Positions 13,713-61,313 of a stretch of DNA of 61,313 nt are shown in pieces. Under the pieces are notes generated by a model that was not told where the DNA came from, made no database searches, and was given only the letters and a program-made list of their open reading frames with translations. This DNA comes from a virus, in IMG/VR virus record IMGVR_UViG_3300005099_000009, positions 1 to 61,313 of that record. One strand, written 5' to 3'. Positions within the stretch are counted from its first letter, which is position 1. Each line of letters begins with the position of its first letter. The position numbers were made by a program, and so were the translations under genes.

Positions 13713-14642
13713 ATGGTTATCACAAGACAGCTTCCAAAGGCCGAGGGCGTGGGCCTCAAGTTCTTGCACCCTTCAGGCTGCACCTATTTCGAAGGCAAGC
13801 CGTTCGCTTACTTATTGCCCGCGCCCGGCGAGAAGTGGGGGCCCTGGTTCGAGCACCCGGAGCCTGCCGAACCGGACGGGAAGCCCTGCGGCCCTGGCCG
13901 GTTCCACATCATGCTTAAGCTGGATTCGCATTTCGCGTCGCTTAATTGGTGGCCCTGGTGGGTCCAATGGGCGGGCCGGATCGGGGGCGACGAGCTTAAG
14001 GTGGGGGTACGCTGGGTCAGGTTGCGGCGGATCAGTTTACCAGCGTTCTGTCGCGCCCTGCGGCCCCCATTCAATTGGGGGAGAGGCGCATTCCTTTCTG
14101 GCCTGAATCTGCCTTATGGCGACTTGCGCGATGCCGATTTTGGCCAGGCCACCTTGCGGCGCGCCGATTTGCGTTACGCCGATCTCAGAGGAGCCAATTT
14201 ATGTAAGGCGGACCTCCAACAGGCCAACCTTGAGGGTGCCCGCTTAGAGAGCGTCCGCGCCAGCCAAGCCCAATTCGCGCAGGCGCACTTGGTGGGCGCC
14301 TTGTTACGAGAAGCCGATCTGGAGGGTGCCCATTTGCGCGGCGCCGATCTGGCGGAGGCCCAATTGGCTAGGGCGCGGCTTCAGGACGCCGACTTGGTCG
14401 GGGCCAATCTCATTTTCGCTTACCTGGTCCAAGCCGACCTGCGGAGGAGCGACCTTCGCGGGGCCCGTTTCGCGGAAGCCAACTTAAGCGAGGCCAATCT
14501 TTGGGGAGCCGACCTGCGGGGCGCCGACCTCCGCAAGGCGTATCTGGACGGCGCTGACCTGAGATGGGCCGACCTCAGAGGAGCCAATCTGCAAGGGGCC
14601 TCTCTAAGCAAAGCCAAGCTTGAAGGGGCAAGACTGCCGTAA
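13713..14642 (+). CDS. Pentapeptide-repeat protein
   Basis: 309 residues. Residues 1-125 form a Trp/Pro-rich non-repeat domain of unknown function. From about residue 126 to the end run some 35 pentapeptides of A(D/N)L(R/X)G type, e.g. ADLRGANL, with a few irregular units. Such repeats fold as a right-handed quadrilateral beta-helix. Some members mimic DNA and protect or inhibit gyrase; the phage role here is unknown. Starts immediately after the previous stop. Confidence 0.85.
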   Translation: MVITRQLPKAEGVGLKFLHPSGCTYFEGKPFAYLLPAPGEKWGPWFEHPEPAEPDGKPCGPGRFHIMLKLDSHFASLNWWPWWVQWAGRIGGDELKVGVRWVRLRRISLPAFCRALRPPFNWGRGAFLSGLNLPYGDLRDADFGQATLRRADLRYADLRGANLCKADLQQANLEGARLESVRASQAQFAQAHLVGALLREADLEGAHLRGADLAEAQLARARLQDADLVGANLIFAYLVQADLRRSDLRGARFAEANLSEANLWGADLRGADLRKAYLDGADLRWADLRGANLQGASLSKAKLEGARLP

Positions 14643-14652
14643 GGAGGACAAG

Positions 14653-15000
14653 ATGGGCTTTCGCGAAGAATGCGCAGAAGGATTGCAAGCCGCGCTTGAC
14701 CGCACGGCAGAGATCGTCCAGGCATTGGCCCAAGACCCTGGTGAGGCGAAGATCAACGAGTGGCTGGAGGCGTACGATCCGCGCGGCGACTGGAAAGCCC
14801 TGTGCACAGGGATGTCCTATATTCACGGTCTCGTGACCGCCCGTTATCTAGGTCCTCTCCGCGCGGTGGAGTTCTTGCTGCTCCTGGCCCAAGCGCTTTG
14901 GATCCGGGGCTTCTTGGCGGGCGTGCAGGAAGGCCGACGCCAAGCGAAGGCCGAGCTGCTGACCCGCCGATGGGAGGTGCAAGATGTATCATCCGAATGA
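14653..15000 (+). CDS. Hypothetical protein
   Basis: 115 residues from ATG 14653 (AAGGAGGACAAG upstream). Helical; a hydrophobic helix near residue 78 (AVEFLLLLAQALWIRGFLAG) might be a membrane or buried helix. Its last 17 bases overlap the annealing-protein gene, so the two are coupled. Confidence 0.55.
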   Translation: MGFREECAEGLQAALDRTAEIVQALAQDPGEAKINEWLEAYDPRGDWKALCTGMSYIHGLVTARYLGPLRAVEFLLLLAQALWIRGFLAGVQEGRRQAKAELLTRRWEVQDVSSE

Positions 15001-16381
15001 TTTCCGGGCAGTCTTGGAAAAGCTCGCGCAGCCCTTCCCCGCCGAGGTCATCGAGTGGAGGCCGGGGCAGGTGAAGGGCAACCGCGCCCAAGCTCTACCT
15101 TACGTGGACAGCCGCGTCTACATGGACCGCTTGGACGAGGCAGCGCCCGGTTGGCTCGACGATTACTCCCTCCATATCACCGATGGGAAGCTTATCGTCG
15201 TCTGCGAGCTGGAGGTGGCCGGTGTCCGTCGCTGCGATCTGGGCGAGGCCAGGCTAGACGACGAGAACGCGGCCACCAAAGCGGCGGCCCAAGCGTTCAA
15301 GCGTGCCTGCGCGAAATTCGGCTTGGGGCGGGGGCTCTACGAGTGGCCGCGGATTTGGGCGGACTACGACCCGCAGCGCAAGACCTTCACGCCTGAAGCG
15401 TGGAAGCTGCTGCGCAGCAAAGCCGTCGAGTTTACAAGGGGCAAAGCCGCCACCACTGCGTCTTCCGTGGAAACTAAGCCGGACCATTCAGAAACACAGC
15501 AGCCCCCTCGGCCTTCGCGGGCTCCGCAACCCGACTACACCGCCTTCTGGCGGGAAGTGAGGAAGCGCGGCCTGACTGCGGAGCAGGTCAAGAAGGAGTT
15601 GGGCGCCACTCCGAAAGAGTGGCTGGCCGCGCACCCCGGCAGCACCCTGGACGATGCGCTCGCCATCGTCTTGGCGAGCCAAGAAAGCCAAGCGGGGGCG
15701 GAAGCGGAGGCCGCGACCCCGCTAGATGCCCTGGAGCAGAGCCAAACGGGCCAAGGCGCTTCCCCAGAGGCCTCTCGTCCCGACCTTTTGGCGACGGTCA
15801 AGCGGCCTACCGACCCGCAAACTCTGAAGCGCTGCCTCCAAGGGCTGGCAATGTTCTACCTCCGGCCCGGCAAGAACGGAGGCCGGGGGCTGAAGGGCCC
15901 CGCCACGCCGAAGCAGATCGGCCTCGTCGCGGGGCTGCTTAACGGGGCCCTGAAGGAGTGGGACGACCCCGACGAAGCGCGACACCAAGTCCTGCAGCAC
16001 TTAGTGGACAAGCCTTCTGCTAAGGCCCTGACCAAATACGAGGCCGCCGCCCTGCTCGACTGGCTGACGGGCGGGGAGGGCAGCGAGCTGGACTCCCTCG
16101 CCGCGACGGAGGCCCGCGCCGTCGCGAAGGCGGTTGCCGGGAGCGAGAAGGAGGCTGAGGAGCCGACAGGCGGGGACGGCGACGGTGACCCGTTCGCCAA
16201 CGCGGAGAGCTTCCGAGCGCTCGTTCGGAGGTCCTTCGGGGACGAGCGGGCGTTCTTGCAAGCCGCGGGGCGTTCCCAGTGGACCTTGGAAAAATACTTT
16301 GAGCACTATGGGCCGGTAGGCTGCGCCAGCAATTTCGCCACAATCCTGGCCCGACAAGTGGCAGAAAAGAGAAAAGCTTAA
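14984..16381 (+). CDS. Rad52/DdrA-like single-strand annealing protein
   Basis: 465 residues. Residues 1-130 match the Rad52/22 fold: FPAEVIEWRPG, YVDSRVYMDRLDE, then RRCDLGEA, DDENAATKAAAQAFKRACAKFGLGR and LYEWPRIWADYD. This family (with Deinococcus DdrA) binds single-strand DNA and anneals complementary strands in recombination-dependent replication. The rest (150-465) is a low-complexity linker and helical domains, including a resolvase-unlike module with TPKQIGLVAGLLNG, often seen after such domains in phages. It likely works with the RecU- and Cas4-like proteins of the same operon. Confidence 0.8.
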   Translation: MYHPNDFRAVLEKLAQPFPAEVIEWRPGQVKGNRAQALPYVDSRVYMDRLDEAAPGWLDDYSLHITDGKLIVVCELEVAGVRRCDLGEARLDDENAATKAAAQAFKRACAKFGLGRGLYEWPRIWADYDPQRKTFTPEAWKLLRSKAVEFTRGKAATTASSVETKPDHSETQQPPRPSRAPQPDYTAFWREVRKRGLTAEQVKKELGATPKEWLAAHPGSTLDDALAIVLASQESQAGAEAEAATPLDALEQSQTGQGASPEASRPDLLATVKRPTDPQTLKRCLQGLAMFYLRPGKNGGRGLKGPATPKQIGLVAGLLNGALKEWDDPDEARHQVLQHLVDKPSAKALTKYEAAALLDWLTGGEGSELDSLAATEARAVAKAVAGSEKEAEEPTGGDGDGDPFANAESFRALVRRSFGDERAFLQAAGRSQWTLEKYFEHYGPVGCASNFATILARQVAEKRKA

Positions 16382-27387: not shown

Positions 27388-28143
27388 ATGCATGCCGAAA
27401 CTAGTGTCGAGCTCCAGCTCCAAGATGAAATGACTGAGCCTGCTTGGGGCATAGCCGCGCTGGTTGACCAGTGGATCGCCGACCGCCGCGCCCAGGAGCA
27501 GGCGGGGCGTCCCAGGGGCGGCTCGATCTGGCCCTCCAGCGTGGGCCTGTGCCTGCGGAAGGCCATCTACCAATACCGGGGCTGCGAGCCGACCAACCCG
27601 CCCCCGCCGCGCCTGCTGCGGATATTCGAGGTGGGCAAGCTTTTCGAGAAGTTCATCCTGGAGATGCTAGAGGAGCGCGGCGTGCTGGTGGCGGCCCAAC
27701 TCGAAGTCAAGTCACTATTCTTCTCAGGCCGCATTGACGCCCTCGTGCGGCAGGGCACGCAGCTCTACGTGGTGGAGCTCAAGACGATTCATTCGAAAGG
27801 GTTTATCTACCGCGATTTGCCTTATGCCCATCACGAAGTACAGGCCTTGGTCTACCACATCTTGGCCGAGCTCAATGGCTGGGCCCCGCTCGCGCCGCCC
27901 CACCTCGTCTACATCTCCAAAGACGATTTGCTGATTGACGAGTACGTGGTCAGCCTGCAGAAGAAGGTCGAGGTGGAGCGGCTGATGCGGGAGGCGGCGG
28001 CCTACGCCCGCGACGGGAGGCTTCCCCCGCGTTTGGAGGGAGGGCCCAGGCGCTGGGAGTGCTGGCACGAGGCGGGACAGAGGCCCGCTTGCGAGTATTT
28101 TGATTTGTGTTGGGGAGGCAAGGAGAGAGGTTATGAAGCGTAA
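27388..28143 (+). CDS. Cas4/RecB-like PD-(D/E)XK exonuclease
   Basis: 251 residues. The SSVGLCLRKAIY motif resembles the first Cys region of Cas4. The nuclease core FSGRIDALV (Asp) and YVVELKTIHS (Glu-x-Lys) follows, and a QALVYHI helix. C-terminal cysteines (WECW, ACEYFDLCW) could complete an iron-sulphur cluster. It would resect DNA ends for the annealing protein. Confidence 0.75.
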   Translation: MHAETSVELQLQDEMTEPAWGIAALVDQWIADRRAQEQAGRPRGGSIWPSSVGLCLRKAIYQYRGCEPTNPPPPRLLRIFEVGKLFEKFILEMLEERGVLVAAQLEVKSLFFSGRIDALVRQGTQLYVVELKTIHSKGFIYRDLPYAHHEVQALVYHILAELNGWAPLAPPHLVYISKDDLLIDEYVVSLQKKVEVERLMREAAAYARDGRLPPRLEGGPRRWECWHEAGQRPACEYFDLCWGGKERGYEA

Positions 28144-28496: not shown

Positions 28497-29720
28497 ATGG
28501 CTAGTCTTTTGTCCGAATTCCAGGCCCGGCGGAACGCGCTCTTGGCGGCGCTGGACGCCAACAACCTCCGGGGGCGCCTGGTGAAGAGCGCCGTCGGCTC
28601 TCAGCTCATCGCCTTCCGCTTCCGGTTGTGGCGTCCGCTCCGCAAGGACGTGATGGAGGCGCTGAACCTGGCCTCGACCCTGGATTACGCTCTGCGGGTG
28701 AGCGGCGTGCGGGTGGCCCTGGAGGGCGGGGACATCGTGATAGAGGTTCCCCGCCGAGGGTTCACGCCCGTGCTCGCCGCCCCGCTCAGGGGCAGGGGAT
28801 TGAAGGTGCCGCTGGGCCGGGACGTCTGGCTCAGGCCGGTGCTGCTGGACTTCGCCAGCCCCTCCAGCCCCCACGCGCTCATCGTGGGAGCCAGCGGCGC
28901 GGGCAAGAGCGAGCTCTTGGCGGCCATCATCTTCGGCTTGGCGCGGCAGAATTCCCCCGAAAGGGTGCGCATCGCCCTGGTGGACACGCGCCGGGCCGAA
29001 CCTCTGGCGAGGTTCGGGCGTCTGGCCCATCTGGCCTTCCGGCCCGCCAGGACGCCAGAGGAGGCGGCCTCGCTTTGCCGCTGGGCAGTGGAGGAGCTGG
29101 AGCGCAGGGAGCGGAACGGGGCGACGCGCCCGGCTATCTTCTTGGCGATAGATGAGGCATTTGACGTCCGAGCCCGCCATAAGGACGTCGAGGAGCTGCT
29201 CATGAGGCTCGCCAGCGGGGGCCGGGCCAAGGGCATACACCTGATCCTCGCCACCCAGCGCACCACGCGGGAGGCATTGGGCAGCCCCCTCATACAGGGC
29301 AACGTCCTGGTGAGGCTGGTGGCGAGGGTGGCGAGCTCCAGCGACTCGTTCCTCGCCACGACCGTCGCCAAGGCGGGGGCGGAGAGGCTCTTGGGCCGGG
29401 GCGATTTCTTGGCCGTGAGCCCCTTGGGCAGGGTAGTGCGCTTCCAGGGCGCGCTGGTGAGGCCGCGCGACGTGCGGGAGCTGCCGTCGGCCAGCCCCGC
29501 GCCCATTCCCGCCCAGGAGCCCCCTGCGAAACCGAAGCGCTCTTGGGGCGGGCACAATCGCGTGCCCGACGAGGAGCTGGGCCCCATCGTGGAGTATTTC
29601 CTGACCGATCCGGGGGCCAGCATCCTGGGAGCCAAGCGGAGGTTCCGGCGCGGCGACGGGCCGGTCTACCGGGCGAGGGAGATCGCTTTAAGGAGGCTTG
29701 AGCATGCGGGAGACGGATAG
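28497..29720 (+). CDS. FtsK/HerA-like DNA translocase ATPase
   Basis: 407 residues from ATG 28497 (GGGAAGGG upstream); a TTG at 28473 is possible. Walker A GASGAGKSE and Walker B AIFLAIDEA, then ATQRTTRE, the FtsK/SpoIIIE sensor motif. A short C-terminal domain (EELGPIVEYFLTDPGASILGAKRRF) resembles the gamma/winged helix of FtsK. It probably pumps or positions DNA. It is not the packaging terminase, which is at 39672. Confidence 0.75.
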   Translation: MASLLSEFQARRNALLAALDANNLRGRLVKSAVGSQLIAFRFRLWRPLRKDVMEALNLASTLDYALRVSGVRVALEGGDIVIEVPRRGFTPVLAAPLRGRGLKVPLGRDVWLRPVLLDFASPSSPHALIVGASGAGKSELLAAIIFGLARQNSPERVRIALVDTRRAEPLARFGRLAHLAFRPARTPEEAASLCRWAVEELERRERNGATRPAIFLAIDEAFDVRARHKDVEELLMRLASGGRAKGIHLILATQRTTREALGSPLIQGNVLVRLVARVASSSDSFLATTVAKAGAERLLGRGDFLAVSPLGRVVRFQGALVRPRDVRELPSASPAPIPAQEPPAKPKRSWGGHNRVPDEELGPIVEYFLTDPGASILGAKRRFRRGDGPVYRAREIALRRLEHAGDG

Positions 29721-34238: not shown

Positions 34239-34454
34239 ATGAAAAACTTGGACTACGAGGACAGCGAGCTGGTGCTGAAGGCGCTGGGCCAGCTGACCGA
34301 AAGGCAGCTGCTGGTATTCGCGCTCTGGCTCGCAGGTTTCGGGGCCAAAGAGATAGCCCGGTTATTGGGTTTGTCAGAAGGCACGGTGAAGCGCCATTTA
34401 AATCGGGCTCGGCAAAAAATGCGACAATTCGCCGAAGCTTATCTAATCTGTTAA
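34239..34454 (+). CDS. Sigma region 4-only protein
   Basis: 71 residues. The sequence TERQLLVFALWLAGFGAKEIARLLGLSEGTVKRHLNRARQKM is a textbook sigma-70 region 4 (ECF type) helix-turn-helix, which binds -35 DNA. Nothing of region 2 is attached; a region 2 protein is encoded next. It has almost no leader and lies opposite the leftward promoter. Likely redirects host RNA polymerase to late genes. Confidence 0.8.
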   Translation: MKNLDYEDSELVLKALGQLTERQLLVFALWLAGFGAKEIARLLGLSEGTVKRHLNRARQKMRQFAEAYLIC

Positions 34455-34506: not shown

Positions 34507-34833
34507 ATGACTTTTCAAGAATTCGATAAGTTATACGAGAACTACTGGCGCTTAGTGCGCGCTATGGCGGCGGACTACGCCCACAGTCCGCTCGACGCTG
34601 AGGACATCGTCCAAGCGGTCTGGGAGCGAGTCTGGGCAGGGGCGCCGACGCCGTCGGAGTTGGCGAACCCCAAGGCTTACCTGAGACAGGTGGTGCGGCG
34701 CGTCGCGGACGACTACTATGGCGCCAGCCCCCAAGCGGTCTCCTGGGAGTGGCTGACGGAGGCCGACTTGGGCGGTCGGCTCCCGCTGGAGGAGATGGGT
34801 TTGGTGGCCGACCTGCGCGGCAGGAGGTCGTGA
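34507..34833 (+). CDS. Sigma region 2-only protein
   Basis: 108 residues. LYENYWRLVRAMAADYAHSPLDAEDIVQAVWERVW and NPKAYLRQVVRRVADDYY match sigma region 2, which binds the polymerase clamp and melts the -10. The C-terminal 30 residues do not contain region 4. With the gene at 34239 it would form a two-piece sigma factor in reversed gene order. Confidence 0.8.
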   Translation: MTFQEFDKLYENYWRLVRAMAADYAHSPLDAEDIVQAVWERVWAGAPTPSELANPKAYLRQVVRRVADDYYGASPQAVSWEWLTEADLGGRLPLEEMGLVADLRGRRS

Positions 34834-35550: not shown

Positions 35551-35907
35551 ATGTTTAGTGTGATTGTGGAGCAGACCTTTAGCGCAGCGCATCGCCTGCC
35601 GGGGGTGCCGGTTTGCGAGCGACTACACGGCCACAACTTCAGGGTTGTAGTAGAGTTAGGCTCAGCTCAGCTAAATGAGCAAGGTATGGTTATAGACTTC
35701 CGCGAAGTTAAGCAGGCTTTGCGCGAGATACTCCCTGACCATACTTACCTTAATGAGCTACTCTCGGAGCCTCCTACTTCCGAAGTCTTATCTCGATGGA
35801 TTTTCAGTCAACTAAGAGATCGTGGCTTGCCTGTTTTGCGGGTTACGGTATGGGAGGGCGAGAAATCGGGTGCTAGCTACTGGGAAGATGGAGTATTACC
35901 TTGCTGA
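35551..35907 (+). CDS. queD: 6-carboxytetrahydropterin synthase QueD
   Basis: 118 residues from ATG 35551 (GAGG upstream). Zinc histidines in FSAAHRLPG and LHGHNF, the catalytic cysteine in VCERLHGH, and WEGEKSG near the end are all in place, as is the FREVK segment. QueD turns dihydroneopterin triphosphate into 6-carboxytetrahydropterin, step two of preQ0 synthesis. The stop overlaps queE by 20 bases. Codon use is AT-richer than in neighbouring phage genes. Confidence 0.9.
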   Translation: MFSVIVEQTFSAAHRLPGVPVCERLHGHNFRVVVELGSAQLNEQGMVIDFREVKQALREILPDHTYLNELLSEPPTSEVLSRWIFSQLRDRGLPVLRVTVWEGEKSGASYWEDGVLPC

Positions 35908-36502
35908 GCCGCCTTTCTGGTCAATCCAAGGCGAAGGCTTGAGATCAGGCTGCCCCACTATATTCATTCGGCTGGCGGGCTGTAATGCTACTCCCGATTT
36001 CTGGTGTTGGGAGTGGTGTGACACGAAGTACGCACGTCACCGTCAGGGATCAGCGAAGCTTAGCTTAGACGAACTTATATACTTAGTAGAGGCGCGAGCT
36101 AATGAGAGTAAGACGGATTGGGTCTGTATTACAGGAGGTGAACCTCTATGTCAAGCGTTACGCCCTTTGATTGATGCCCTCAAGGCTCGGCGCTTTAAGA
36201 TTCAAATCGAGACCAATGGCACTCTGTTTCAGCCTCATCTGAGGGTGGATCATTGGACAGTCTCGCCCAAGACGGAGCAAGTAGTGGAATTCTATTGGGG
36301 TGTGGCGAAAGAGTTTAAGTGGGTTGTAGCTCGTCCTAGCGATCTAAAGCGCGTTCGTATTCCTTCGTATTTCTGGGGCGCTACTATTTTACAGCCCGAA
36401 AGTAATCGTCCCGATGCTATTTGTTGGTGCTTAGATTACATCAAGAAGCACCCGCGTTGTCGGCTGGGCTTACAGCTACATAAAATCATAGGAGTGCGAT
36501 AA
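35888..36502 (+). CDS. queE: 7-carboxy-7-deazaguanine synthase QueE
   Basis: 204 residues from ATG 35888. Radical-SAM enzyme: FWSIQGEGLRSGCPTIFIRLAGC, then the cluster cysteines, then ITGGEPL, QIETNGTL and VSPK. Converts 6-carboxytetrahydropterin to 7-carboxy-7-deazaguanine. The cysteines are spaced C-x7-C-x3-C (GCNATPDFWCWEWCDT), not the common CX3CX2C or the CX14CX2C known from some QueE. The stop overlaps the folE start. Confidence 0.9.
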   Translation: MEYYLAEPPFWSIQGEGLRSGCPTIFIRLAGCNATPDFWCWEWCDTKYARHRQGSAKLSLDELIYLVEARANESKTDWVCITGGEPLCQALRPLIDALKARRFKIQIETNGTLFQPHLRVDHWTVSPKTEQVVEFYWGVAKEFKWVVARPSDLKRVRIPSYFWGATILQPESNRPDAICWCLDYIKKHPRCRLGLQLHKIIGVR

Positions 36503-37059
36503 TGGGACAATTCAATCAACTAGCGGTAGAGCGAGCGGTTTATGATTTACTCATTGCGATAGGCGAAGACCCTTCCCGGCCAGGGCTACGGGATACCCCA
36601 CGGCGTGTAGCAGAGATGTACTATGAGCTCTTACACTACCAAGACACGCACCTTACTGCTTTCCCCAACGAAGAGAAATATGACCAGATGATCATTGTGC
36701 GTCACATCCCCTTCTGGAGCTTATGCGAGCATCACTTGCTTCCTTTCGGGGGTTATGTGAGCGTGGGGTATATTCCTACCAATAAGCTATTAGGCTTATC
36801 CAAGCTCATTCGTATTGTAGAGGTATTCGCGCATCGCCTACAGCTCCAAGAGCGGATGACCCAACAGATTGCTAATACGATTCAGCAGCACATTAACCCA
36901 TTAGGCTGTGGTGTATTAGTTGAGGCCGAGCATTTATGCATGAGTGCTAGAGGAGTCAAGAAGCAAGGGCACAGGACTATCACTAGTGCTCTGAAGGGAG
37001 TTTTATTGGACAAACCAGAGGCTCGGATGGAGTTCTTGAGATTGTGTGGGTATAAATGA
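36502..37059 (+). CDS. folE: GTP cyclohydrolase I FolE
   Basis: 185 residues, the usual length. Zinc ligands in SLCEHHLLPF and in CMSARGV, the substrate loop GRTITS-like segment HRTITSALKG, and DTPRRVAEMY at the start are intact. Makes dihydroneopterin triphosphate from GTP, the first step of the pathway. Lies inside the cassette with one-base overlap to queE and four to the next gene, so it is made for preQ0 rather than folate. Confidence 0.95.
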   Translation: MGQFNQLAVERAVYDLLIAIGEDPSRPGLRDTPRRVAEMYYELLHYQDTHLTAFPNEEKYDQMIIVRHIPFWSLCEHHLLPFGGYVSVGYIPTNKLLGLSKLIRIVEVFAHRLQLQERMTQQIANTIQQHINPLGCGVLVEAEHLCMSARGVKKQGHRTITSALKGVLLDKPEARMEFLRLCGYK

Positions 37060-37784
37060 AAATTTACTTTGTAGACAGCGGTTCATGGGCATGCGTATTT
37101 ATAGAGGAGCGTGTTAATCGAATCCTTATTAGCTTCGCGGAATTCAATACCCGCAAAGCTCTTGAATCTTACATTAGTCAGTTTGACTACCCCCTTGACA
37201 TCTTCTTCGATAGCGGGGCTTTCTCAGCTTATTCTAGAGGCTACCGTATAGACCTGGAGGACTACGGGCGCTTCCTCTTAGAGAATCAGCACTTCTTCAC
37301 AGTATACGCCAACTTAGACGTTATTGGTGATTGGCGCGCTACTTGGGATAATCAACAAAAGCTGGAAGCGATGGGCTTGTCGCCTTTACCTGTGTTCCAC
37401 TATGGCGAGCCTTGGGAGTACTTAGAGCAACTAGTTCGGCGCTACGACTACTTGGCTTTGGGAGGTATGGCAGGTGTCCGTTCCAAAACTAAGCTTGTTC
37501 CATGGATAGCTCAATGTTTCTGTATTATTCGATCAATTAAGCCACATTGTAGAGTGCACGGCTTTGCCTTGACCTCACCGTTTTTATTGCGGCTGTTCCC
37601 ATGGTATAGCGTAGATAGCTCTTCGTATGCAGCTAGCCGCTACGGCCAAATATTTCTGTGGGGATGGGTGTCGTTGTGTGAGTTGGGATTTAGACCGCTG
37701 CAATCCATTTTCTCCGCGTATCTTGGCGTTATTGCGAAAGAACGGCTTAAACCTGCAAATGGTTCTCCGGGCATTGAGGACTGA
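37056..37784 (+). CDS. dpdA: DpdA-like DNA deazaguanine transglycosylase
   Basis: 242 residues. TGT-superfamily barrel motifs as in phage DpdA: FFDSGAFSAY (Asp52), YANLDVIGD (Asp88), PLPVFHYGEPWEYL, DYLALGGMAG, then HGFAL and YSVDSSSY. It swaps guanine in DNA for preQ0. It lacks the tRNA-binding PUA domain and zinc site of tRNA enzymes and stands with all preQ0 genes, so DNA is the likely target. It is shorter than the bacterial DpdA. Confidence 0.85.
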   Translation: MKIYFVDSGSWACVFIEERVNRILISFAEFNTRKALESYISQFDYPLDIFFDSGAFSAYSRGYRIDLEDYGRFLLENQHFFTVYANLDVIGDWRATWDNQQKLEAMGLSPLPVFHYGEPWEYLEQLVRRYDYLALGGMAGVRSKTKLVPWIAQCFCIIRSIKPHCRVHGFALTSPFLLRLFPWYSVDSSSYAASRYGQIFLWGWVSLCELGFRPLQSIFSAYLGVIAKERLKPANGSPGIED

Positions 37785-37858
37785 GCGAACCAGCTCTGCA
37801 TACCTACCTCTCTTTAAATGCAATGTTCGTACGTTTCTTAGACTAGAGGAGCAAATCA

Positions 37859-38515
37859 ATGCAAATCAAAGACATTCCCATCGAGCTAATTGAACCTAAC
37901 CCTTGGAATGCGAGGCGTTTATCGCGTGACGACCCTCGCTTTCGATCCATTGTTAACGCAATTCAGATGGATGGCGAGCTTTCCTCTATTCCTATCGTCC
38001 GTCCTCTGCCCAATGGACGCTACCAGATGGTGGGAGGTTGGCATCGTACTTTAGCGGCTAAGGAAGCAGGTCTTAAATCTATTCCCTGTATTGTGCGCGA
38101 GATGAGCGAGCAGAGGGCGCGCGAGCTTACATTGCTGCTAAACAAGGCGGAGGGCGATGATGATTGGGAAGCGCTACGCGAAGCTTTACGAGCGCTAGAG
38201 GAAGACTTTAACCTAACGCGGGAAGAAATTAGCGATCTCACCGCTTTTGATCTTAATGAGATTGATGACTTACTTACCTTTAGCTTAGACGACTTAGCGT
38301 CTCTAGCTCAACTTGCCAAGGAAGCGCCCGAACCGGATGATGAAGAGATGCAATGGGTTAGGCGCAGTTTTCGCTTGCCAGCCTCGGCAGCGCGAGTCGT
38401 AGACGAGGCCATTCAGCGAGTGGAGCAACAAGAAGGGGTGCAAGCTTGGCGCGCCTTAGAACTAATCTGCGCTGACTTCTTAGCGGGAGCAGAGCAGGAT
38501 GTCTCGGTGGCCTAA
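37859..38515 (+). CDS. ParB/sulfiredoxin-fold protein, possible DpdA partner
   Basis: 218 residues, GAGGAGC upstream. ParB/Srx N-terminal domain: IPIELIEPNPWNARRL, IPIVRPLPNGRYQMVGGWHRTLAAKEAG and LLLNKAEGDDDW. The remainder is acidic and helical. Bacterial Dpd islands use DpdB, also with a ParB/Srx-type ATPase domain, together with DpdA; this gene sits between dpdA and queC. Equally it may be one of the ParB-like nucleases common before terminase genes. Confidence 0.75.
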   Translation: MQIKDIPIELIEPNPWNARRLSRDDPRFRSIVNAIQMDGELSSIPIVRPLPNGRYQMVGGWHRTLAAKEAGLKSIPCIVREMSEQRARELTLLLNKAEGDDDWEALREALRALEEDFNLTREEISDLTAFDLNEIDDLLTFSLDDLASLAQLAKEAPEPDDEEMQWVRRSFRLPASAARVVDEAIQRVEQQEGVQAWRALELICADFLAGAEQDVSVA

Positions 38516-39197
38516 AGCCGTTGTGCTACTTTCGGGAGGCATTGACTCAACGACCTTGGCTACTTATTTACTGTCCCTTGACTTTGAGGTCTATGCTCTT
38601 ACAGTCGCATATCAGCAACGCCACCAGCGAGAAATCGAGGCGGCCCGCACTATTGCGCAGAGCTTAGGCATAGAGCATCGAGTTATCCAAGTCCCTCTAC
38701 AAGGCATAGCACGCAGTGCTCTCTTGGGCGATTCGCCAATTCCTCATACCCAATATAATCAAGAGACGCAGAGGCAAACCGTAGTGCCCAATCGCAATAT
38801 GATTTTGTTAAGTTTAGCTGTTGCCTGGGCGGTTTCTCTTAAGGCAGAAGTTGTGGCTTATGCAGCGCATCGTTCAGACTATGCAGTTTACCCTGATTGC
38901 CGGGATGTGTTCGTGAGGCCCTTGCGCCAAGCGATTCAAGCTGGTAATTACTCTGCTCCTACTCTCCTTGCCCCATTCCTCTATTACACCAAAGCGCAGA
39001 TAGTGGCCCTAGGCTTAAAGTTGGGCGCGCCGTATCATCTTACTTGGTCGTGCTATGAAGGTGACGAGCGTCCTTGCTTGGAGTGCGGGACGTGTCGTGA
39101 GCGTACGGAGGCGTTTGCTCTCAATCAAGTGCCTGACCCTGTGCTCACTCCGGAGGAGTGGCAGCAAGCTTTGCAGATCATTGGTTGGAAGGAATGA
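38499..39197 (+). CDS. queC: 7-cyano-7-deazaguanine synthase QueC
   Basis: 232 residues. PP-loop ATP site LLSGGIDSTTLATYLL, the substrate segment PNRNMILLSLAVAWA, and zinc cysteines in SCYEGDERPCLECGTCRER are present. Makes preQ0 from 7-carboxy-7-deazaguanine, ammonia and ATP. No QueF or glutamine-amidotransferase domain follows, so preQ0 is the expected final base. The stop overlaps the terminase small subunit ATG. Confidence 0.95.
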   Translation: MSRWPKAVVLLSGGIDSTTLATYLLSLDFEVYALTVAYQQRHQREIEAARTIAQSLGIEHRVIQVPLQGIARSALLGDSPIPHTQYNQETQRQTVVPNRNMILLSLAVAWAVSLKAEVVAYAAHRSDYAVYPDCRDVFVRPLRQAIQAGNYSAPTLLAPFLYYTKAQIVALGLKLGAPYHLTWSCYEGDERPCLECGTCRERTEAFALNQVPDPVLTPEEWQQALQIIGWKE

Positions 39198-44410: not shown

Positions 44411-44439
44411 ATTATACCAAAAAATGTCAAGTTTGTCAA
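44411..44439 (-). promoter_or_regulatory. Leftward promoter for HNH gene
   Basis: Minus strand TTGACA (44439-44434), 17-base spacer, TATAAT (44416-44411). It overlaps the start of the rightward fusion gene at 44424, so the two could interfere. Confidence 0.85.
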
Positions 44440-46685
44440 GGATAGAGCAGGAGATTAGGCGCAGGGGCATCGAGCTCAAGCTCGACTTGGGCTGCGGCGA
44501 CCGCAAGCCCCCTGGCTACATCGGCATTGACAAGAAACCGGGGCCGGGAGTGGACATCGTTTGGGACTTGGAGCGGGGCATCCCGTTCCCCGACAACAAG
44601 TTCGACGTGGTCAGGGCGTGGCACTTCTTGGAGCACATGCCCGATCCCATCTTCATCATGGACGAGGCCTGGCGCGTGCTCAAGCCGAGCGGCGTCTTGG
44701 AGCTGGAGGTGCCCGCCACGCCGGGCGACGGGGCCTTCGCCAACCCTACCCACAAGTCGTACTGGAACAGGCTCTCGTTTCAGTTTTACAGCGACGACAC
44801 GTTGCGCCAGAGCTGCGGCGTCCGAGCCAAGTTCAGCATCGAGGAGCTGGAGGAGCGGGACGACCCGGAGTGGAGGTGCCGGTACGTCCGCGCCAGGCTT
44901 AGGGCGGTCAAACCCCGCGCCAACGAGGCCATCAGGCCGTTCAGCCGCTTTATCCCACCCAAGCCCGCCATGGCATTTTACACCGAGTTTTTCTCGGCGG
45001 AGGAGGCGTGGGAGAAGTGGGCCAAGGACAGGATCGCCGACGGCATCCAAGTCGAGCCGAAGTTCAACGGCTTCCGCGCCATCGTCGAGAAGGCGGGCAG
45101 CCGGGCCCGCATGTGGATCGAGGACTCGCCCGGCAAGAACATCTTGCCGAAGTTCCCCGATGTCGAGAAGGCCGTCAAGTCCATCGCCGACGACTTCATT
45201 TTGGACTGCGACTTGGGCATTGAGGAGAATGGTCACCGCCTGCCCCGCATAAGGCTGATGACGCTGACCGCCGACAAGCCGGAGCTGGCCCCCGGCCAGC
45301 GCGTGGTGGTGACGGCGTTTGACCTGCCTTACTGGAACGGGCCGCTGGACGAGACGCCGCTGTCCGAACGGCGGGCCAAGCTGGAAAGCTTTTTCGGTAA
45401 GCGCCTGAAGCCATCACCTAACTTCCGGTTGTCGCCCAAGCGCGTCGCGCGCGACAAGGCGAGCTTCTTGGCTGCCAGCAAATGGGCCGCGTCGCAGGAG
45501 ATGAGCGAGGGCATGGTCGCCAAGACGCTGTCGTCGCCGTACGCGCTTAGCGGCGCCACGTCGGAGTGGGCGAAGGTCAAGCACGTGGTCGAGGTCAAGG
45601 CGATCGTCCTCGGCAAGCAGGCCAACAAGAACGGCACGTGGAGCTACCGCTGCGGCCTTCTGTTGGGCGATGCTGATTACGCCAATACTGTCGAGGTAGA
45701 CGGCCAGAAATACGTGGACTTGGGCAAGACGTTTGCTACCAAGATAAAGGCCGACGTGGGCGACATCGTGACGGTCGAGGTGGAGGAGATTATCGAGAAG
45801 GAGAACTCGCTCCACTGGCTGGGCCCCAAGGTGGTGGACGTGGACAAGGCCCGCAGGCAACCGTACTTCGCCAAGCAGGTGATTGACTTGGCGAAGCGGG
45901 GCCGCGTTTACCAGCGGGCAGCCGAGGCCCTGGGCGACGAGGGCGAAACGCGGGGCGAGCGGGCGGCGAAGTGGTGGGCAGAGCACTGGCACGAGGTCTT
46001 CCCGGCGTCGGGGCGCGGGCGCTTCGTCTACCAGCACCACTACAGGCACTTACCCAAGAAGGAGCAGAAGCTGGGCGAGGACGAGCTGCTGGGGCTCCCG
46101 CGCGGCGTCAGCGTCCACGGCGACCTGCGCTTGGAGGGCGACGACGCGCTTTGGGGCGTATCCGTCTTCCTCGGCAAGGCGGAGGATGTGCGCAAGGCGG
46201 GCGGCTGCCGCCTGTGCAGCTTGCCTCCCGACGACAATTTGCAAATCGCGTTCAAGCTGCCGCAGCCCAAGGGCTGGCTCGACGTCGGGAAGCGCAAGCC
46301 GATGATGTGGGACCCCGGCGACGCCGTCGAGGGCAAGTTGGACAAGTTCTTCGCCGTGGACTGGGGCACCTACGACATGGGCGTAGCGCGGGAGCACATG
46401 ATCGAGATATTCCTGCGCGGCAACAAGCTGAAAGGCCGCTACCTGTTGGAGTACGCCCCCATAGGCGGCAGGCGCGTCTGGATCATAGACAGGCCGCGCG
46501 ACCAGACGCCCTACGCCGAGAGCCACAAATTGGAGGACGTGGTGCGCGAGCTCAGACGTAAGGGACAAAAGTGGCTCATTTGGGCCAAGCCGGGCGCGAG
46601 GCCGCGCAAGATTGACGTGACCAAGTTTAAGGCAGAGAGCGTGCGCGAGGTGATTTGGCGGTGGGCCAGCCAAACCTTAAGTTGA
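44424..46685 (+). CDS. Methyltransferase-DNA ligase-phosphoesterase-like fusion
   Basis: 753 residues. Residues 15-120: class I SAM methyltransferase (LKLDLGCGDRKPPGYIGID, FDVVRAWHFLEHM). Residues 205-500: ATP-dependent DNA ligase, with nucleotidyl lysine 213 in VEPKFNGFR, DFILDCDLG, Glu362 in EGMVAK, EWAKVKH, then an OB-type segment. Residues 530-690 contain FVYQHHYR and VHGDLRLEGDDALWGVSVFLG, resembling the LigD 3'-phosphoesterase signature (Q-x-H, H-x-DLRLE). ATG 44424 lacks a good ribosome site. Probably heals and seals DNA ends; no chromosomal-type LigD polymerase domain is present. Confidence 0.7.
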   Translation: MSSLSRIEQEIRRRGIELKLDLGCGDRKPPGYIGIDKKPGPGVDIVWDLERGIPFPDNKFDVVRAWHFLEHMPDPIFIMDEAWRVLKPSGVLELEVPATPGDGAFANPTHKSYWNRLSFQFYSDDTLRQSCGVRAKFSIEELEERDDPEWRCRYVRARLRAVKPRANEAIRPFSRFIPPKPAMAFYTEFFSAEEAWEKWAKDRIADGIQVEPKFNGFRAIVEKAGSRARMWIEDSPGKNILPKFPDVEKAVKSIADDFILDCDLGIEENGHRLPRIRLMTLTADKPELAPGQRVVVTAFDLPYWNGPLDETPLSERRAKLESFFGKRLKPSPNFRLSPKRVARDKASFLAASKWAASQEMSEGMVAKTLSSPYALSGATSEWAKVKHVVEVKAIVLGKQANKNGTWSYRCGLLLGDADYANTVEVDGQKYVDLGKTFATKIKADVGDIVTVEVEEIIEKENSLHWLGPKVVDVDKARRQPYFAKQVIDLAKRGRVYQRAAEALGDEGETRGERAAKWWAEHWHEVFPASGRGRFVYQHHYRHLPKKEQKLGEDELLGLPRGVSVHGDLRLEGDDALWGVSVFLGKAEDVRKAGGCRLCSLPPDDNLQIAFKLPQPKGWLDVGKRKPMMWDPGDAVEGKLDKFFAVDWGTYDMGVAREHMIEIFLRGNKLKGRYLLEYAPIGGRRVWIIDRPRDQTPYAESHKLEDVVRELRRKGQKWLIWAKPGARPRKIDVTKFKAESVREVIWRWASQTLS

Positions 46686-59902: not shown

Positions 59903-61313
59903 GTGGTCGGGACGGAGATCGCCAGGCTTTACGCCAGCATAGGGGCGGACATAAGCGGCTTGGAGCGCGGCTTGGAGCGGGCCGAGACGCGCCTGCAGAA
60001 GGCGGCCGCGGCCATGCAGGGCACGGGCGCGGTCCTGAGCGGGGCCCTGACCGCGCCCCTCATGGCCGCCAGCGGCGCGGCGGCCAAGCTGGCCGTGGAT
60101 TTCGACGCCCAGCTGCGCAACATACAGTCCATCGGACGCCAGACGGAGGCCCAGCTGCAGGCTTTGGGCCAAACCTTCATCACGATGTCCGCCGACATCA
60201 CCAAGACGACCGACTCGGCCGTCAACCTGGCTGCGGCCTTCTACGACATCCAGGGCTCCGGCTTCGCCGGGGCGGACGCGATGAAGGTCCTGGAAGCCAG
60301 CACCAAGGCCGCCAGCGCGGGCCTCACCACCACCGAGGTGGCGGCGGGGGCCCTGTGCGCCTCGCTCAACGCTTACGGCGAGAGCGCCGACCGGGCGCGG
60401 GCCTTCTCGGACGTGCTCTTCCGCGTGGTGGACGTGGGCGTGGGCACCTTCGAGGAGCTGAGCCACTCGCTGGGCTACGTGGTCGGCTCGGCTGCCCAGG
60501 CGGGCGTGAGCTTCGAGGAGGTGGGCGCGGCCCTCGCCACCATGTCGAAGCAGGGCATCGAGTTCTACAAGGGCGCCCGGGCCTTGAACATGCTCATCTT
60601 GGCGCTCATAGATCCCTCGGATGAGCTCGCGGACGCGCTCAAGTCCATCGGCTACGAGTCGGGCCAAGCGGCCATAGACGCCCTTGGCCTGGCGGGCACG
60701 CTCCAAGCCTTGGAGGAGGCGGGCTACGGCGGCACGGAGCAGATGGCGAAGCTGGGCTTCTCCTCCATGGCCCTGCGTGCCGCACTGGCGCTCACGGGCA
60801 AGGGCGCGGAGATGTTCGCTGGGGACTTAGAGGCCATGCGCCGCGCCAGCGAGGGCGCTGGGGCCACCCAGGAGGCCTTCGCTATCCAGACCCAGAGCGT
60901 GGCCGCGCAAATGGCGAACGCGCGCAACAAGCTGGAAGCCTTGGCCTTGGGCTTCGGTCAGCTGCTCCTCCCGGCCATCACCGACGCGTTGGACTGGGCC
61001 GGGCGCTGGCTGGACTACCTCAACAGCCTGGACGAGTCCACCAAGCGCTGGGTCGCGACCACGGCGGGGATTGCCGCCGCCGTCGGCCCCGGCCTCATCG
61101 CCCTGGGCAAGCTCGCAAGCGCCGCGGACAGGCTGAGCAGCCTCTTCCGTAGCGCCCAAGAGCGCGCCCTGGAGAAGATAGGGGCCATCAAGCGGGAGGC
61201 CGACGTGGACCTCGCCGCGGCCTCCAGCGCCGGCAAGCTCGCCGCGGCCCTGGGCGGCGCGGGAGGGCTGGCCGCGGCCTTCGGGGCCGTGGGCGCGGCC
61301 GCGGCCTATCTCA
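59903..61313 (+). CDS. Tape measure protein, N-terminal part
   Basis: 470 residues from GTG 59903 (TTAGGAGCGTA upstream), open at the right edge. N-terminal coiled coil LERGLERAETRLQKAAAAM, then the phage-tail TP901/core tape-measure domain: DFDAQLRNIQSIGRQTEAQLQALG, GFAGADAMKVLEASTKAASAGLTTTEVAAGALCASLNAYGES, ASKQGIEF-like segments. Sets tail length and is ejected with DNA. Continues in frame at base 1 if the map is circular. Confidence 0.9.
   Translation, partial: MVGTEIARLYASIGADISGLERGLERAETRLQKAAAAMQGTGAVLSGALTAPLMAASGAAAKLAVDFDAQLRNIQSIGRQTEAQLQALGQTFITMSADITKTTDSAVNLAAAFYDIQGSGFAGADAMKVLEASTKAASAGLTTTEVAAGALCASLNAYGESADRARAFSDVLFRVVDVGVGTFEELSHSLGYVVGSAAQAGVSFEEVGAALATMSKQGIEFYKGARALNMLILALIDPSDELADALKSIGYESGQAAIDALGLAGTLQALEEAGYGGTEQMAKLGFSSMALRAALALTGKGAEMFAGDLEAMRRASEGAGATQEAFAIQTQSVAAQMANARNKLEALALGFGQLLLPAITDALDWAGRWLDYLNSLDESTKRWVATTAGIAAAVGPGLIALGKLASAADRLSSLFRSAQERALEKIGAIKREADVDLAAASSAGKLAAALGGAGGLAAAFGAVGAAAAYL

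Follow-up and report, generated by a model that had tools for sequence, protein, structure and literature searches.

The 61,313-base linear IMG/VR virus record IMGVR_UViG_3300005099_000009, analysed over its full length and referred to here as the window, carries a tight operon of six genes on its plus strand between positions 35551 and 39197, in the order queD-queE-folE-dpdA-ParB-superfamily gene-queC (Table 1). Most neighbors overlap, by 20, 1, 4 and 17 bp, and the sole spacer is a stretch of 74 bp between the stop codon of the annotated dpdA frame and the ParB gene. The terminase subunits come directly after queC with no gap, which places the cassette just upstream of the terminase.

Table 1. 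Genes and reading frames of the operon, with family matches
Feature	Size	Position	Strand	Match
QueD (6-carboxytetrahydropterin synthase)	118 aa	35551..35907	+	PF01242 4.3e-28; TIGR03367 7e-24
QueE (7-carboxy-7-deazaguanine synthase, radical SAM)	204 aa	35888..36502	+	phrog_2076 1.7e-29
FolE (GTP cyclohydrolase I)	185 aa	36502..37059	+	PF01227 4.1e-65; NF006826 over cut-off
DpdA, annotated frame	242 aa	37056..37784	+	phrog_887 2.2e-49, residues 1-204
DpdA C-terminal part, +1 frame	76 open codons	37663..37893	+	junction matching relatives' LWD(G)
ParB/Srx-superfamily protein, candidate phage DpdB	218 aa	37859..38515	+	PF02195 3.2e-15
QueC (7-cyano-7-deazaguanine synthase)	232 aa	38499..39197	+	PF06508 2.9e-64; TIGR00364 over cut-off

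All four preQ0 synthesis enzymes are encoded together. FolE and QueC score above the curated cut-offs, while QueD and QueE are clear family members, yet fall under the equivalog cut-offs. QueD contains the C-x3-HGH motif (as CERLHGH), together with the DHxxLN and WEG motifs. FolE contains the zinc-site motifs CEHH and HLCM; its matches to QueF models were discarded as a consequence of the shared T-fold. QueC possesses the SGGIDS motif and the cysteine pattern C-x7-C-x2-C-x2-C.

QueE is read from the ATG at 35888, although a GTG at 35822 is also a possible start. It matches TIGR04508, the model of the Cx14CxxC-type enzymes, at 6.7e-29, which is below the cut-off, and its closest solved protein is QueE from Burkholderia multivorans (PDB code 4NJG, 4e-20). 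The QGEG, GGEP and ETNG motifs are present. The cluster motif is C-x7-C-x3-C, in which all three cysteines are kept, and it does not conform to the radical SAM pattern CX3CX2C. It also differs from the B. multivorans enzyme, whose cluster loop contains an insert and whose motif is CX14CX2C. Several unusual cysteine spacings also occur in the QueEs of viral loci L021, L027, L030, L079 and L092; those seen among phage QueEs include CX14CX2C, and CX18CX3C in L030. Because other phage enzymes vary too, the spacing in the window probably reflects a cluster loop that tolerates such variation.

The initial annotation of this DNA had placed FolE, QueD, QueE and QueC here in one overlapping operon, and both the family matches and the gene overlaps bear this out. 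It had also described the active-site motifs of all four enzymes as intact, which holds for QueD, FolE and QueC, the cluster motif of QueE being non-canonical.

DpdA and its ParB-superfamily neighbor

The dpdA gene is disrupted in frame as assembled, and the two frames were joined into a read-through protein for searching and folding only. Its annotated frame contains the motifs FDSGA, LDVIGD, GGM, HGF and VDSS; the aspartates D52, D88 and D187 are invariant and the conserved His168 is present. The AlphaFold model of the read-through protein (mean pLDDT 93) has the TGT fold, and its best matches in the PDB are tRNA-guanine transglycosylases, including a complex with preQ1. The modeled fold and the conserved aspartates are those of a DpdA-type transglycosylase. 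By tblastn the protein is 31-46% identical to CAjan-type and mycobacteriophage DpdA, the upper value being reached among phage DpdAs that include that of CAjan, which assigns it to the DpdA1 subfamily. The solved DNA-guanine transglycosylase 7UI4 is a distant relative (E 0.03).

The gene between dpdA and queC, absent from the initial annotation, encodes a ParB/Srx-superfamily domain. Its product has a ParB N-domain, which bears a GGWHR motif, and is helical in its C-terminal part. The AlphaFold model of the protein is closest to CTP- or CDP-bound ParB, Noc and KorB, while its core is closest to sulfiredoxin. In bacterial dpd islands DpdB is a ParB-superfamily ATPase and the partner of DpdA (PMC12839542, PMC11888242), and a ParB gene beside phage dpdA was proposed as a dpdB homolog in mycobacteriophages (PMC6392294).

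A ParB gene is present in 41 of 80 viral dpdA loci and in 38 of these it is the immediate same-strand neighbor of dpdA, upstream in 24 and downstream in 14. On the DpdA tree, in a clade with a support of 98 ParB lies upstream at 26 loci and is absent from no scorable locus, and a clade with a support of 96 contains 36 scorable loci without ParB, including CAjan and EC151. The 17 loci with ParB downstream, the window among them, group loosely and with weak support, with one ParB-less neighbor, L064. The three ParB labels require 4 changes on this tree as opposed to 36 in shuffles, and the presence of ParB follows the DpdA lineages.

The linkage to dpdA and the published partnership of DpdB are the reasons for reading this protein as a DpdB-like partner, probably equivalent in phages to the bacterial DpdB. 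It seems unlikely that the gene instead has a role in partition or regulation or encodes a nuclease, with no connection to dpdA beyond its position. Such a gene would be in line with the lack of a match to any DpdB-named model in the NCBIfam and PADLOC results, libraries that may hold none, and with the fact that phage ParB domains also occur fused to, or next to, modification enzymes such as DNA methyltransferases (PMC12783734). The direct adjacency in 38 of the 41 ParB-bearing loci, in either order, the distribution over the DpdA tree and the action of the bacterial ParB-superfamily ATPase together with DpdA (PMC12839542; PMC6392294) argue against it.

More tentatively, the DpdA lineages may divide into those always accompanied by ParB, upstream in one and downstream in another, and one that never is, with the partner acting as a nucleotide-driven DNA clamp or loader. 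If so, the ParB partner would let a small transglycosylase modify whole genomes, while DpdAs that lack ParB would have become independent of such a partner. This raises the testable question of whether some phage DpdA lineages need a ParB-type partner for base insertion.

Predicted modification and related systems

Judging from their families, FolE, QueD, QueE and QueC would convert GTP to preQ0. The DpdA1-type DNA guanine transglycosylase would then exchange guanines in the replicated phage DNA for preQ0, the adjacent DpdB-like protein would bind DNA and nucleotide and load or license DpdA, and the resulting cyano-deazaguanines would block host restriction enzymes. Phage-encoded synthesis of preQ0 with insertion into DNA is an already known strategy, and its role is probably the escape from such enzymes. 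A 2023 study of further phage 7-deazaguanines is said to include the genes DpdL/M/N.

Escherichia phage CAjan (Seuratvirus) contains, as does the window, FolE, QueD, QueE, QueC and DpdA1 and no amidotransferase (PMC6884629). In CAjan and Rosebush, both with these five proteins and no amidotransferase, dPreQ0 amounts to ~32% and 28% of G, respectively, and DpdA is essential for dPreQ0 in CAjan (PMC6884629). The window contains no QueF above the cut-off, no GATase_7, no DpdC-type DUF6884, no Gat-QueC fusion and no YhhQ transporter, these being the families covered by the search, and the single QueF match is FolE, below the cut-off. Since the gene set is that of CAjan and Rosebush and since QueF, GATase_7 and DUF6884 are lacking, dPreQ0 is the best prediction for the end product by analogy with these phages. 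The initial annotation had made the same prediction from the presence of QueC without QueF, amidotransferase or DpdC-like genes. That gene content is confirmed within the window and the prediction fits the published gene set, but the product cannot be read from gene content alone, since DNA of phage MED16 contains dADG though dpdA is the sole pathway gene detected there (PMC8306585).

The end product could accordingly be a derivative such as dADG or dG+ instead, if the host, or a phage gene that escaped recognition, supplied a further step, but this is considered improbable. Besides MED16, the traces of dADG in Rosebush (PMC6884629) would fit it, as would sequence missing from the contig. The linear record is not closed, with open frames at 1-976 and 59903-61312 running off its ends, so that the absence of a gene here is no proof of its absence from the phage. 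Against a derivative stand the lack of the tailoring genes listed above and the size of QueC, which at 232 residues has no fused GAT domain.

Mycobacteriophages Knocker and Cracklewink resemble the window in that the genes for DpdA, QueD, QueE, FolE and a ParB-like protein form a single run that precedes the terminase; Knocker also has QueC. In the mycobacteriophage modules, however, ParB is located upstream of dpdA rather than downstream, and their DpdAs are only about 31-36% identical to that of the window. Rosebush represents the mycobacteriophage preQ0/DpdA module for which dPreQ0 was measured. CAjan has no ParB beside dpdA, in contrast to the window, and its DpdA falls in a different clade; its module adjoins the DNA polymerase and includes a putative preQ0 transporter, whereas the module of the window adjoins the terminase.

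In Streptomyces prophages (L101, L102 and L106) a related terminase is directly preceded by ParB-DpdA-QueD-QueE-FolE, but with ParB upstream and with no QueC in the stretch examined. One of them (L102:4596-7186) shows two adjacent DpdA matches beside ParB-like genes. The order QueD-QueE-FolE-DpdA-ParB-TerL of viral locus L037 is the same as in the window. The bacterial dpd islands (DpdA-DpdB-DpdC) likewise combine a TGT homolog with a ParB-superfamily protein (PMC12839542, PMC11888242), while in the window no DpdC and no sign of restriction genes were found.

The reading frame of dpdA

The annotated dpdA frame is homologous to DpdA1 only for residues 1 to ~202, the profile match stopping at 202-206, just past the conserved VDSSS motif. 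Homology resumes in the +1 frame and extends up to 37893, so that this frame overlaps the ParB gene much as other cassette neighbors overlap, and the annotated frame closes with ~40 unrelated residues. The disruption is located at ~37659-37666, in a short G run, and no single intact frame spans the gene, whereas in the relatives aligned the region is uninterrupted and in one frame.

With a profile of 12 relatives the +1 tail gains +10.7 bits, as opposed to -0.3 for the annotated tail, a gain that 2 of 1000 shuffles also attained; against a broader profile built from 82 relatives, 1% of shuffles scored as well as the tail. Within the +1 tail, Glu E264 is almost invariant across 30 aligned sequences, and most of the 10-residue blocks of the tail have a pLDDT of 80-95 in the read-through model, the last block having 68. 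Pairwise comparison of the tail with single relatives was weak, with p about 0.04 at best, and around the break neither frame was favored by codon-usage likelihood; the decision came from the many-relative profiles and the structure model. When DpdA and QueE of the window were each scanned as single proteins against viral_contigs, no relatives emerged, and an exact 24-mer adjoining the break had no second copy there.

The relatives, the profile test and the AlphaFold model agree in indicating that dpdA is not intact as assembled, and the sequence as given may encode no working transglycosylase. The likeliest cause is an error in the contig, and in our view dpdA is intact in the living phage. 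If the break were instead real and dpdA were decaying, preQ0 would be made and not inserted, and would feed queuosine in host tRNA or be lost. This appears quite unlikely: the out-of-frame position of the conserved C-terminal part, an annotated tail whose 54 residues past the motif fall short of the length found in all scorable relatives, and the lack of an intact-frame copy in viral_contigs would all suit a decaying gene, but the +1 frame remains open with its homology and confident fold retained, the other cassette genes are open with catalytic motifs intact or all cysteines kept, and more stops would be expected had the gene been lost in the distant past. Programmed +1 frameshifting, which would join both frames and set the level of full-length DpdA, finds some footing in the G run and in a second frame open as far as the ParB-gene overlap, but is highly improbable in view of the single uninterrupted frame in the relatives aligned and of a junction with no stop and, to our knowledge, no known +1 slip signal.

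The description of this locus in the initial annotation as a complete cassette with a DpdA-like transglycosylase stands for preQ0 synthesis and for the position of a DpdA1-type relative, but only tentatively for insertion, the frame of the latter being disrupted. That annotation identified the pathway and the likely product correctly, but it overlooked the ParB partner and wrongly took every part to be intact. As a caution, reading a "complete cassette" by eye can leave a frame break in its key gene unnoticed.

Origin, host and genomic surroundings

The cassette has a G+C content of 0.50 as compared to a mean of 0.60 for the window, which is in the lowest 0.5% of equal-length windows, and it was skipped by a gene finder whose training sequence was mostly the remainder of the phage. 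Both features suggest acquisition from elsewhere, probably by horizontal transfer, and the cassette is seen as modular and mobile. With a probability of roughly 75%, the phage acquired the operon horizontally and carries it as a dPreQ0-type module for hypermodifying its DNA with 7-deazaguanine, in which insertion by DpdA would be aided by the ParB partner and would block restriction, the break in dpdA being likeliest a contig error.

The closest matches of the large terminase, at about 53%, are proteins from Anaerolineales/Chloroflexota MAG contigs, followed by those of Streptomyces prophages, and from these relatives the host is perhaps a member of Chloroflexota or Actinobacteria. A phage with such a terminase is thereby added to the viruses that likely bear deazaguanine DNA.

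Several other genes of the window were recorded. Just upstream of the cassette, Sigma-70 region 4 and then region 2 are encoded as separate small genes (34239-34454 and 34507-34833), a pair suggestive of a sigma factor split into two proteins. Within the head-gene region, a 750-residue protein (44433-46685) contains an N-terminal SAM methyltransferase domain and an ATP-dependent DNA ligase domain. An FtsK/HerA-like ATPase (28497-29720; PF01580 1e-25) also matched the PADLOC models SspH and mad8. A Cas4-like PD-(D/E)XK nuclease is encoded at 27388-28143, and at 14984-16381 lies the gene for a Rad52-like recombination protein. The gene at 13713-14642 encodes a pentapeptide-repeat-like protein with many ADLRGADL-type repeats, which matches PHROG families of unknown function at up to 3e-41.
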